Shown: positions 31,917 to 35,337 of the stretch, in pieces
Position numbering within the stretch: the first letter of the stretch is position 1
How the letters are laid out: the number at the start of each line of letters is the position of its first letter
Assembly: GCA_017545245.1 (NCBI GenBank)
Contig: JAFWPB010000007.1
Location: 1-64,000 of the forward strand
Source of the DNA: Clostridiales bacterium
GTDB lineage: Bacteria > Bacillota > Clostridia > Saccharofermentanales > Saccharofermentanaceae
DNA length: 64,000 bases
Direction of reading: 5' to 3'
Program-made: the position numbers and the translations under genes
The notes under the pieces: generated by a model
Told to the model about the DNA's origin: nothing
The model's database searches: none
What the model saw: the letters and a program-made list of their open reading frames with translations, nothing else

Positions 31917-32062
31917 AGAAGAAATAACCCGGACTGTTCATAAAAAGCCGGCAAAAGAAAATACCGCCACCGACGAGTTTTTTTGCTTCGCAAAAACTGT
32001 CTGAGTCGGAGCGGTATATTTCTCTGCCGGCTATATCAGGTATAGTCCGGATTATTTCTTCG
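31917..32062 (-). repeat. Hairpin element family II, copy D, covering the end of paaK
   Basis: Imperfect arms of about 50 bases (31917-31967 and 32011-32062) enclose a core read on the minus strand as CCGAC-CTCAGACAG-hairpin-CTCG-GTCGG (with loop TTTTTGCGAAGCAAAAA). The right arm includes the last codons and TAA stop of paaK (32052-32062), and the left arm holds an inverted copy of them. On the paaK strand GCCGGC is followed by TTTTT, so the hairpin can terminate paaK. Confidence 0.8.
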
Positions 32063-33377
32063 TGAAGCGCTCGTCGATAACCCTCTTCATCTTTCCTTCT
32101 GATCTAGGCAAAGATCTTGGCTCACAGAGTTTGATCTTCGCGTGGATACCGGTCATGGAAGCGATCTCGCCTTCGAGCATCTTCTCTGTCTTCTCGATCT
32201 CACGGATAGAGTCGGAGAAGAACGAAGGTGTCATTTCTACTTTGACAGTCATTCTGTCGAGGTTCTGTACACGATCAAGATAGATCATGTAATGTGGCTC
32301 AACCTCACTGTGTGCAAGGAGAACGGCTTCGATCTGGGACGGGAATACGTTCACGCCACGGATGATCATCATGTCATCTGCACGTCCGGTTACCTTCTCG
32401 ATCTTCGGTGTGGTACGTCCGCACTCGCACTTGCCATGATACAGACGTGTCAGGTCGTGCGTGTTATAACGCAGGAGCGGTACACCTTCCTTACTGATGG
32501 AAGAGAATACCAGTTCGCCCAGTTCACCGTCCGGGAGAGGCTCACCTGTCTCTGGATCTACGATCTCCGGAATGAAGTGGTCTGCTTCGATATGGATTAG
32601 ATCGGACTTGTCACAGGAACATCCTACACCAGGTCCGCAGATCTCGGTAAGACCATAGATATCGAAAGCACGCAGGCCGAGTTTCTCTTCAATCTGATCT
32701 CTCATCTCGATCGTCCATGCTTCGGCACCGAAGATACCGCAGCGGAGATTCAGTTCGGACTTATCGATGCCGGCAGCTTCGAGCTGGTCAGCAATATGCA
32801 AAGCGTATGTCGGTGTGCACATCAACACTTCCGGCTTCCACTCACGAAGGATCGTGATCTGTCTTGCAGTATTACCACCGGAAACAGGAAGTGCAACACA
32901 TCCCATGTCAGCGCAGGCATAGTGTGGGCCAAGGCCACCTGTGAAGAGACCATAACCATAAGCGATATGAACGAGATCACCCTTCTGCACGCCGGCTCTT
33001 GCCATCGCACGGCAGAGAACGGAGTTCCAGAGCTTTACGTCGTTCGCAGTATATCCGACGACCTTCATTTTACCGGTCGTACCGGAAGATGCGTGTACAC
33101 GGACCAGTTCCTGTCTCGGAACAGCCAACGTTCCGAATGGATAGTTATCACGGAAATCAAATTTATCGGTGAATGGAAGTTTCGGGAGGTCGGCAACACT
33201 CTTGATGTCACCCGGCTGTACACCCTTTTCTTCCATGCGCTTTCTGTAGTACGGCACGTTGTTCCACATGCGGTTCACGCACTTGATCAAACGCTCGCTC
33301 TGTACCTGTGCGCGCTCGTCGTCTGACATGCACTCGGCTTTGGGATCATAGATCCAGGAGTTCACTTCTTTTCTCAT
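32052..33377 (-). CDS. paaK: Phenylacetate-CoA ligase family enzyme
   Basis: A 441-residue adenylate-forming enzyme that activates an aryl acid (phenylacetate or indoleacetate) with ATP and coenzyme A. The P-loop-like SSGTTGKMKVVGYT, GLTEICGPG and the C-terminal VTGRADDMMIIRGVNVFPSQIE hinge and RGxN motif are those of PaaK. Zinc-type cysteines (CECG) lie near residue 320, as in many anaerobic members. It is cytoplasmic. In fermenters it usually works with indolepyruvate ferredoxin oxidoreductase in aromatic amino acid catabolism; no such partner is in the window. A T-box leader precedes it and a family II hairpin overlaps its end. Confidence 0.93.
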   Translation of the reverse strand: MRKEVNSWIYDPKAECMSDDERAQVQSERLIKCVNRMWNNVPYYRKRMEEKGVQPGDIKSVADLPKLPFTDKFDFRDNYPFGTLAVPRQELVRVHASSGTTGKMKVVGYTANDVKLWNSVLCRAMARAGVQKGDLVHIAYGYGLFTGGLGPHYACADMGCVALPVSGGNTARQITILREWKPEVLMCTPTYALHIADQLEAAGIDKSELNLRCGIFGAEAWTIEMRDQIEEKLGLRAFDIYGLTEICGPGVGCSCDKSDLIHIEADHFIPEIVDPETGEPLPDGELGELVFSSISKEGVPLLRYNTHDLTRLYHGKCECGRTTPKIEKVTGRADDMMIIRGVNVFPSQIEAVLLAHSEVEPHYMIYLDRVQNLDRMTVKVEMTPSFFSDSIREIEKTEKMLEGEIASMTGIHAKIKLCEPRSLPRSEGKMKRVIDERFTKK

Positions 33378-33412: not shown

Positions 33413-33452
33413 AAAAAGTCCCATTGCCGTCATTTTCTAACAGCAATGGGAC
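33413..33452 (-). terminator. T-box regulated terminator
   Basis: GTCCCATTGC (33452-33443) and GCAATGGGAC (33427-33418) pair perfectly, followed by TTTTT on the minus strand. It is mutually exclusive with the T-box antiterminator. Confidence 0.88.
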
Positions 33453-33720
33453 GAAATCTTGATCTCGCGGTACCACCCATTTTCGAGTGTCTTCTTTTCC
33501 AAAAGCACTCGCTCTCATCAAGGCCTAACAGCCTCTGCCCGAATAACGATGGGCTTCCGTATCCACCTACCTTCGTCATCCCCGACAAATCGGGATACCC
33601 GCTTTCAGCAGATCTGCTCGGGAGGGAACTTCACTGATCTTCTCTCGTATGCCGGCTCTCAATTCTTCCGCCGGCACACCCTGTACGACTTCCAACCGCT
33701 ACTTTTCTCCGTCAACGCAT
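33413..33720 (-). promoter_or_regulatory. T-box riboswitch leader of paaK, probably Phe-responsive
   Basis: On the minus strand the invariant T-box sequence TGGGTGGTACCGCG lies at 33479-33466, followed by the terminator hairpin. About 220 bases of potential stem I to III structure precede it. In the lower 3' side of stem I the sequence GTGAAGTTCCC suggests a UUC (Phe) specifier at 33628-33626; this assignment was made by eye and is less certain than the T-box itself. Uncharged tRNA pairing with the T-box would open transcription of paaK. Confidence 0.88.
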
Positions 33721-33741
33721 TTATCATTAACAGTTAAGCAG

Positions 33742-33770
33742 ATTATGCGGCGAAAAGACGTCGATGTCAA
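33742..33770 (-). promoter_or_regulatory. Promoter of the T-box/paaK transcript
   Basis: Minus strand: TTGACA at 33770-33765, 17-base spacer, CATAAT at 33747-33742, just upstream of the T-box leader. Confidence 0.75.
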
Positions 33771-33805: not shown

Positions 33806-34144
33806 CTATGAATCTTTCTTGTCGTCTGCGTCCGTTTTGATCTGGTCGTTGTTGGTCACTTCGTCTTCATCGTCTCTGAAATCAACATGGATACCGAGAA
33901 CATTTACGTCGGTGCCCTTGTCATCTACAATGACGTGAATACCCGGAAGATCAACTTTGACGCCGTCATCTTTACTGATATCGATGCCCTTGCAGCTCTT
34001 GTTGATCTCGCCTGTCGTGATGCACTCTGTCAGTTTCTTCGCGCCGGTGCCGATATAGAAGATACCGCTGACGCAAAGGAAGATCATGGACATAACGAAG
34101 CAGAATACCATGATACAGATTAGTATTGCACTACCCTTTTTCAT
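33806..34144 (-). CDS. Small single-pass membrane protein of the PadR/HAAS operon
   Basis: 112 residues: a basic start MKKG, one hydrophobic helix (AILICIMVFCFVMSMIFLCVSG), then an acidic tail with two similar strands (VDLPGIHVIVDDKG and VNVLGIHVDFRDDE) that suggest a short beta-repeat, as in the DUF4097-type adhesin-like proteins often found in such operons, but far shorter. I cannot assign a function. The start is 7 bases after AAGGAGG and one base after the stop of the HAAS gene, so the genes are co-translated. Confidence 0.75.
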   Translation of the reverse strand: MKKGSAILICIMVFCFVMSMIFLCVSGIFYIGTGAKKLTECITTGEINKSCKGIDISKDDGVKVDLPGIHVIVDDKGTDVNVLGIHVDFRDDEDEVTNNDQIKTDADDKKDS

Positions 34145-34145
34145 A

Positions 34146-34973
34146 TTATGCCTCCTTTTCTGCGCTGGTGGTTGACTTACCCAGCCAACGGAAGTAAGCG
34201 ATCGTTCCCAGGATGAATCCACGTATCGCGAAGAATGCGATGATCGCATGTGCAATCACAGCGAATGCCAGCGCGATGGCGAGGAACAAGGTTCCGAGGA
34301 ATATTCCGCCGGAGAATGAAGACATAAGCGCAAACAACGTAACAGATGCTGCACCTGTAACGATCGGCCATGCCGTGATCAGGAGAGTCAGTGCCAGAGC
34401 AATGAACCATACCGGAACAAATACAAAGATCGTAAACAGAATTGCAAATGCTTTGTCATGCGTCTTCGGCTGCGGTTTCTGATAATTCGGATCCTGTGAC
34501 GGATACTGCTCATAACCTGTAAGCTCAACTTGTTTCCATTCCTGCTTCGGATGCGGCTGCGAAAGATCCGGTGCACGACCACCCTGGTGTGCGGTGTCCC
34601 CTGCCGGTTCCGGCTTTGGAGCTTTGTTCTTCGGCGGGATCGCATATGTCGGATGGCAGAAGCCCTGGATGGTCTGTGCCGTGGTGCCGCGATTCGGACG
34701 TCCAAGCCATGTCTGGATTGGAACGATCGGGAATGCGCCGGCTGCGACCTGCTCTGTTCCTGCTGGATTGTATTCCGGAACAGCTTCGCCGAGATAATAC
34801 TGTGCAACTTCTTCCGGGCTGCCAAGCTTGGCAGCGATCTCATTTTCAGCTTTCCCTTCGGAAACGCCGATATCAAAATGCATCTCGAATTCTTTCAAGA
34901 TTTCTTCCACATCATTGGAAGGAAGCGTGACTAACTTTTCACGCAGCGAAGAGATATATTCTTTCTTATTCAT
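34146..34973 (-). CDS. HAAS-domain (DUF1700) membrane protein
   Basis: 275 residues. The N-terminal 65 residues are a HAAS domain (MNKKEYISSLREKLVTLPSNDVEEIL and a GKAENEIAAKLGSPEEVA motif), the partner domain that bridges PadR-type regulators and membrane sensors. A Pro/Gln-rich linker of about 110 residues follows, then about four membrane helices. Co-occurrence with a padR gene directly upstream is the family norm, and the protein is thought to report envelope or lipid stress to PadR. It overlaps padR by 4 bases. Confidence 0.88.
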   Translation of the reverse strand: MNKKEYISSLREKLVTLPSNDVEEILKEFEMHFDIGVSEGKAENEIAAKLGSPEEVAQYYLGEAVPEYNPAGTEQVAAGAFPIVPIQTWLGRPNRGTTAQTIQGFCHPTYAIPPKNKAPKPEPAGDTAHQGGRAPDLSQPHPKQEWKQVELTGYEQYPSQDPNYQKPQPKTHDKAFAILFTIFVFVPVWFIALALTLLITAWPIVTGAASVTLFALMSSFSGGIFLGTLFLAIALAFAVIAHAIIAFFAIRGFILGTIAYFRWLGKSTTSAEKEA

Positions 34974-35287
34974 GCGCTTTCCCCTCCCACTATCTTATTG
35001 ACGCTGGCGGTAAAGGAATTCCAATCCTCCAGAAGCTCTTCGAGTTTTTTCTGTCCCATGACTGTAAGACTATAGTATTTCCGCGGCGGTCCGCTCTGCG
35101 ACTCCTGCAGATAGGATGCCACTAAACCGTCACTGGCCAGTTTACGAAGAAGCGGATAGACCGTACCGTCAGAGATCATGATGGTCTCAGACAAAGTGCT
35201 GGCCAGCTCATAACCGTAACGGTCACTGTCTTTCAACATGGCCAGTACACAAAGATCGAGAACGCCCTTCTTAAATTGAACATTCAT
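34970..35287 (-). CDS. PadR-family transcriptional regulator
   Basis: A 105-residue winged-helix repressor: VLDLCVLAMLKDSDRYGYELASTL, TVYPLLRKLASDGLV and the basic wing GPPRKYYSLT identify the PadR family (subfamily 2, short C-terminal helix). It should bind the palindrome at 35338-35359 immediately downstream of its own promoter and thereby autoregulate the three-gene operon. The ATG at 35287 is preferred, 7 bases after AGGAGG; a GTG two codons upstream is inside the spacer. The inducer is unknown. Confidence 0.92.
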   Translation of the reverse strand: MNVQFKKGVLDLCVLAMLKDSDRYGYELASTLSETIMISDGTVYPLLRKLASDGLVASYLQESQSGPPRKYYSLTVMGQKKLEELLEDWNSFTASVNKIVGGESA

Positions 35288-35337
35288 GTGCACTCCTCCT
35301 TTATTTAAAATAACTTCAGTTTCTTTTCCCTTTCGTG

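Follow-up and report, generated by a model that had tools for sequence, protein, structure and literature searches.

Transcriptional T-boxes for tRNA-Phe (RF00230), for example that of pheST, carry UUC in Stem I, an S-turn formed by AGUA and GAA, a UGGN bulge and an antiterminator/terminator switch. Phenylacetate-CoA ligases (PaaK) of solved structure are known from catabolism. Phenylacetate is available in the rumen and in the gut, and we know of no study that has settled the genes and the control behind the rumen synthesis of phenylalanine (Phe) from it. That rumen bacteria make Phe from phenylacetate is reported in PMC7356843, which cites Allison 1965. The conversion of aryl acids to aromatic amino acids in Methanococcus maripaludis is discussed together with an indolepyruvate oxidoreductase in PMC4162585, which cites Porat et al. 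Here we compare these systems with a locus in which a T-box precedes a gene of the PaaK family.

The window analysed here, i.e. the whole stretch of 64,000 nucleotides from contig JAFWPB010000007.1 of a Clostridiales bacterium of the rumen, contains a single Rfam T-box, at 33444-33724 on the minus strand. The match to RF00230 is full length (model positions 1-219 of 219), with 103.4 bits (E 9.8e-22) for a gathering score of 93 bits. A first-pass annotation made from the letters alone had proposed a T-box at 33413-33770. The above-threshold Rfam match, together with a promoter and a terminator, shows that this T-box is real, and the proposed interval is accurate, extending from the -35 box of the promoter to the U-run of the terminator. 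Sequence inspection revealed a sigma-70-type promoter at 33742-33770 (TTGACA-17 nt-CATAAT, 11/12), on the minus strand like the other features of the leader. In the Rfam alignment, AGUA at 33700-33703 forms the 5' side of the internal (specifier) loop of Stem I, and UGGU at 33472-33475 is the T-box bulge, which can pair with the 3' ACCA of the tRNA. The antiterminator region, comprising the T-box sequence and its 3' half, was located at 33445-33483 by the alignment and by folding. An intrinsic terminator hairpin of 15 pairs at 33418-33452, identified as a hairpin and in the fold, is followed by UUUUUGUU. For the 91 nt that contain the terminator, the predicted folding energy is -33.6 kcal/mol, with a z-score of -5.3 relative to shuffled sequences. 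When the 3' arm of the terminator is omitted, the T-box sequence pairs with UCCCAU at a z-score of 0.25, no stronger than shuffles, which is expected because the antiterminator needs the tRNA.

The specifier loop (33632-33621) reads GAA-G-UUC-C-CUCC, its CUCC pairing with GGAG, and the specifier codon UUC (Phe) was assigned to 33626-33628 from the Rfam register and from a calibration on the T-boxes of the same genome (G000). An Rfam search detected nine T-boxes in this genome, including that of the window, and when read in this register, all those with a named amino-acid gene downstream (7/7) specify the expected amino acid, so that the window leader reads UUC, Phe. For instance, with genes named by NCBIfam, CUC is found for 2-isopropylmalate synthase, AAC for asparaginyl-tRNA synthetase, UUC for pheS (L007) and UGG for trpE. 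Two threonyl-tRNA synthetases have one T-box each (G000:C16:73028-73243 and G000:C61:2156-2385), with ACC and a UGGA bulge. The UUC specifier that the first-pass annotation considered likely was thus borne out, the covariance model also yielding UUC and not a codon for another amino acid. The tRNA-Phe of the genome, with anticodon GAA and 3' end ACCA, fits both the UUC specifier and the UGGU bulge. According to one survey, specifiers matched gene function wherever this function was verified (PMC2494555). T-boxes are described in a review as preferring a purine right after the specifier (PMC7583486), a preference from which the window departs, the base directly 3' of the specifier being C. Among relatives this base is A, G or C, many leaders having A or G, which indicates that the position is tolerant within this group. 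A Val (GUU) specifier was also considered and ruled out: L069 and L073 read GAA-A-UUC, the base after UUC varies and UUC is constant, and it is the UUC register that gives the correct amino acids at the seven named genes. From its sequence, the leader is best explained as a canonical transcriptional T-box riboswitch specific for tRNA-Phe.

The gene directly downstream from the leader is paaK (32052-33377, minus strand, ATG at 33377), and profile matches assign its product of 441 aa to the PaaK-family AMP-forming (aryl)acyl-CoA ligases. The domains PF00501 (AMP-binding, 61.9 bits) and PF14535 (AMP-binding_C_2, 112.6 bits) are both above their cut-offs. The score against the PaaK equivalog TIGR02155 is 534.3 bits, 112 bits short of the cut-off of 646.3, and the protein is therefore labelled PaaK-family; phenylacetate is its presumed substrate, on the basis of the specifier and the family and not of TIGR02155. 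Among proteins of solved structure, it is closest to phenylacetate-CoA ligases: the alignment covers 423 residues, and the GK motif near the C-terminal end is conserved. The PDB matches also include PaaK-family enzymes with other substrates. No other strong PaaK match is found in the genome.

To assess the conservation of this arrangement, three sets of loci that share species were analysed. A scan of one genome per species provided 80 PaaK loci with up to 6 kb on each side, and a T-box was called when the core motif and the specifier loop were both present at most 700 nt upstream. A T-box was found upstream in 50/80 PaaK matches with enough upstream DNA, a count that includes two matches from L100 and leaves out L092, which has too little upstream DNA. 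A simple motif gave 44/80, an undercount due to leaders reading UGGUAACGCG, which a wider motif caught; the L065 and L100 leaders both read GAAGTTC. In 118 related genomes, 107 PaaK matches were taken and nine more of 304-346 bits were left out; 36 of the 106 with enough upstream DNA have a T-box. For the 29 best loci besides the window's in a class-wide search of 391 genomes, the corresponding number is 17/28. The specifier is UUC in every T-box of the three sets (50/50, 36/36 and 17/17). In the stem below the specifier, both sides change among relatives and pairing is kept (GGAG/CUCC, GGGG/CCCC, UGAG/CUCA and AGAG/CUCU), which also bears out the register of the specifier. Twelve out of 20 sampled leaders pass the Rfam gathering score, and the other 8 carry the motif. 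Most of the closest PaaK relatives derive, judging from record titles, from metagenomes of the rumen or of other gut habitats. Among named relatives, the cultured Thermoclostridium caenicola DSM 19027 (L098) has a T-box with UUC upstream of paaK, and none was detected in Ruminococcaceae strain KHP2 (L051). The neighbours of the window's locus (PadR, HAAS, a 149-aa protein, a macro-domain protein, glnA and a zinc-ribbon protein) are absent from the one-per-species loci beyond the window's genus and L102, indicating that the T-box travels with paaK and not with a neighbour. The genes at 33806-35293 (minus strand), upstream of the T-box, encode a PadR regulator, a HAAS-domain protein and a small putative membrane protein, and are kept in the window's genus.

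A tree of 153 non-identical PaaK sequences (quick method, midpoint root) groups all 57 T-box rows within one 97-row clade (SH-aLRT 99), in which T-box rows belong to sample families f1, f3, f9 and f30 and to named Oscillospiraceae. The remaining 40 rows of this clade have no detected T-box, two of them having almost no upstream DNA, and T-box control is thus not essential. At least seven changes are needed to account for T-box presence on the tree. Most simply, this paralogue acquired its T-box once, long ago, and lost it several times; repeated gain could also produce this pattern. Upstream of paaK in L144 (neighbouring genus g2), the terminator hairpin seems to be kept and Stem I and the T-box sequence are gone, possibly a loss in progress. 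The 51 rows that lie at most 6 kb from iorA and have no T-box are all outside the T-box clade. Two T-box rows of Oscillospiraceae, L099 and L100, adjoin iorAB, in the order iorA-iorB-[T-box]-paaK-ACT.

The first-pass annotation had suggested a search for an iorAB-type oxidoreductase elsewhere in the genome, and one is present. IorA is encoded at G000:C59:92801-94546 (683 bits, cut-off 650.9) with IorB beside it (244.5 bits, cut-off 230), in an operon ordered sodium:solute symporter, IorA, IorB and ACT-pair protein. No T-box was detected on the IOR operons of five loci, including that of the own genome, at E up to 0.05, which leaves only one step of the proposed phenylacetate-to-Phe route under T-box control. 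Sister genera g3-g5 carry a symporter-PaaK2-IorA-IorB-ACT operon and a separate T-box paaK. The genome of the window has the same operon minus PaaK2, making the T-box paaK the obvious partner of IorAB. Among the 118 related genomes, 87 have a PaaK match that reaches 300 bits, and IorA is over the cut-off in 82 of these and in 7 of the other 31 (Fisher p 3e-14, uncorrected for kinship). Of the five PaaK genomes without IorA over the cut-off, four have it in pieces on two contigs and the other is 73% complete. IorA is present in each of the 37 genomes that carry a T-box paaK, counting that of the window; it passes the cut-off in 35 of them and is fragmented in G017 and G089. A T-box was also sought in the iorB-paaK gap of about 440 nt in the iorA-iorB-paaK-ACT cluster of genus g2 and discarded: in L159, L160, L165, L174 and L182 the gap looks coding by eye, seemingly for a PaaI-like hotdog thioesterase. 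The symporter-PaaK2-IorAB operon of L195 is preceded, at a distance of about 3.9 kb, by a Na+ riboswitch at 366-415 of the plus strand (RF03071; 46.4 bits for a gathering score of 40.5).

We consider it probable that uncharged tRNA-Phe induces the activation of phenylacetate, which would then supply phenylpyruvate and Phe. The view of the first-pass annotation, that Phe starvation controls phenylacetate activation, is supported. When Phe is short, uncharged tRNA-Phe would pair with the leader at two places, the UUC specifier through its GAA anticodon and the UGGU bulge through its 3' ACCA; this binding would hold the antiterminator, and RNA polymerase would read into paaK. The PaaK-family ligase would convert phenylacetate to phenylacetyl-CoA at the expense of ATP, and the separately encoded IorAB would carry out the reductive carboxylation of phenylacetyl-CoA to phenylpyruvate, from which an aminotransferase would form Phe. 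No PF05138 match, which would indicate the oxygenase subunits PaaA/PaaC, is found in the genome (controls were positive in 4/14), and this rules out the aerobic route of phenylacetate breakdown. The genome encodes a prephenate dehydratase (C21:12528-13052); the usual synthesis of Phe is therefore probable, and salvage would be an alternative and not the sole source.

Other explanations were weighed against this reading. The T-box could be real and Phe-specific and the ligase act on another acid, such as phenylpropionate, cinnamate, 4-hydroxyphenylacetate or indoleacetate, with only an indirect link to Phe. The ligase does fall below the strict PaaK equivalog cut-off (534.3 versus 646.3), and its PDB matches include family members with other substrates. 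Nevertheless, the solved structures closest to it are those of phenylacetate-CoA ligases (423 residues aligned, GK motif conserved), and in every T-box relative the specifier is UUC, never UAC or UGG; we regard a different acid as rather unlikely. Another explanation holds that PaaK and IorAB work in the oxidative direction or in disposal (Phe fermentation, aryl-acid catabolism or detoxification) and that the T-box is a quirk. PaaK is indeed best known from catabolism, and the iorAB-paaK-ACT operon of genus g2 contains the apparent PaaI-like thioesterase gene seen by eye. However, induction of paaK by uncharged tRNA-Phe would come precisely at times of Phe scarcity, the ATP cost of an AMP-forming ligase makes such an enzyme poorly suited to acid release, PaaA/PaaC are absent, and an ACT-pair protein adjoins iorB. 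This makes an oxidative role very improbable.

It is even harder to regard the leader as the decaying relic of another Phe T-box whose control of paaK has been lost, and we give this idea very little credence. Leaders have been lost in several relatives, L144 shows an apparent terminator without Stem I, and the window specifier is followed by C, all of which would suit decay. Yet the window's leader retains an intact promoter, specifier, T-box bulge and terminator, stems show compensatory changes among relatives, and the association of T-box and paaK spans at least four sample families (f1, f3, f9 and f30). Induction of phenylacetate activation by uncharged tRNA-Phe remains our preferred reading.

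Other T-boxes of the genome could give clues regarding a wider salvage circuit. A T-box with AUC (Ile) at L006 1501-1744 (-), i.e. G000:C23:58063-58306 (-), precedes an acyl-CoA ligase gene (L207:2972-5491, minus strand) encoding a protein of 839 aa with XRE, cupin and AMP-binding domains. The best NCBIfam model for this protein is the acyl-CoA synthetase MbcS (410.5 bits), a relative only, as the cut-off is 850. Of 30 loci examined in this genome and its relatives, 27 have the AUC T-box upstream of an MbcS-like ligase. Branched-chain acids are the substrates of MbcS-type enzymes, and Ile is known to be formed in the rumen from 2-methylbutyrate through the same type of reactions. This ligase could possibly serve Ile salvage from 2-methylbutyrate. 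In the own genome, threonine ammonia-lyase (76.5 versus 378.8) and citramalate synthase (173.1 versus 450) models remain below cut-off; the citramalate synthase match is nearly full length and may be a functional relative. Finally, a UGG (Trp) T-box at L009 1501-1750 (-), i.e. G000:C21:10766-11015 (-), lies upstream of the gene for a TrpB-like TrpB2 (TIGR01415, 597.5 bits). This T-box is close to the prephenate dehydratase gene.

The Phe T-box of paaK, the Ile T-box of the MbcS-like ligase and the Trp T-box of TrpB2 are hints of T-box control of salvage in general. We tentatively suggest, as a possibility that falls somewhat short of an even chance, that T-boxes in rumen Clostridia are a general switch for the salvage of amino acids from fermentation acids and indole, the specifier naming the acid of the ligase. 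In such a circuit, uncharged tRNA-Phe would switch on PaaK, tRNA-Ile a branched-chain-type acyl-CoA ligase and tRNA-Trp TrpB2, and ferredoxin-dependent oxidoreductases would carboxylate the acyl-CoAs.

A conserved Phe T-box would assign one paaK paralogue to the phenylacetate-to-Phe route, apart from the paralogue of the IOR operon, and would predict both the substrate and the inducer of the ligase. Together with the Ile T-box on the MbcS-like ligase, it could provide a rule, applicable from sequence alone, for the carboxylic acid of a CoA ligase in uncultured gut bacteria. It could also be a way to see gut microbes switch from amino-acid synthesis to scavenging. The literature searched contains no prior report of a link between a T-box and a phenylacetate-CoA ligase, two main T-box surveys lying outside it, so that an earlier mention is possible; a Geobacter genome paper contains both terms, T-box and paaK (PMC2700814).

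In comparison with known systems, the element is an ordinary T-box and its target is the new part. The leader shares with other tRNA-Phe T-boxes all the features listed at the outset, but the gene it precedes encodes a carboxylic-acid CoA ligase and not a tRNA synthetase, a transporter or an enzyme of the shikimate pathway, and the window specifier is followed by C instead of a purine. The solved PaaK structures 2Y27/2Y4O, which we take to be Burkholderia cenocepacia PaaK, and 4R1L belong to the same family as the window's ligase over its whole length. In contrast to the genes of these enzymes, that of the window is predicted to respond to amino-acid starvation, in a genome that lacks the aerobic pathway. 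With the aryl-acid route of rumen bacteria and of the Methanococcus maripaludis IorAB, this system would have in common the sequence from phenylacetate through phenylacetyl-CoA and phenylpyruvate to Phe, with an IorAB-type enzyme, and would differ by the addition of T-box control. To our knowledge, T-box control of this route has not been described, and archaea are not known to use T-boxes. The IorAB-PaaK-ACT operons of other Clostridia encode the same enzymes as the window's genome, but there PaaK2 lies inside the operon, with no T-box in the loci examined, whereas the window's PaaK is a separate paralogue preceded by a T-box.
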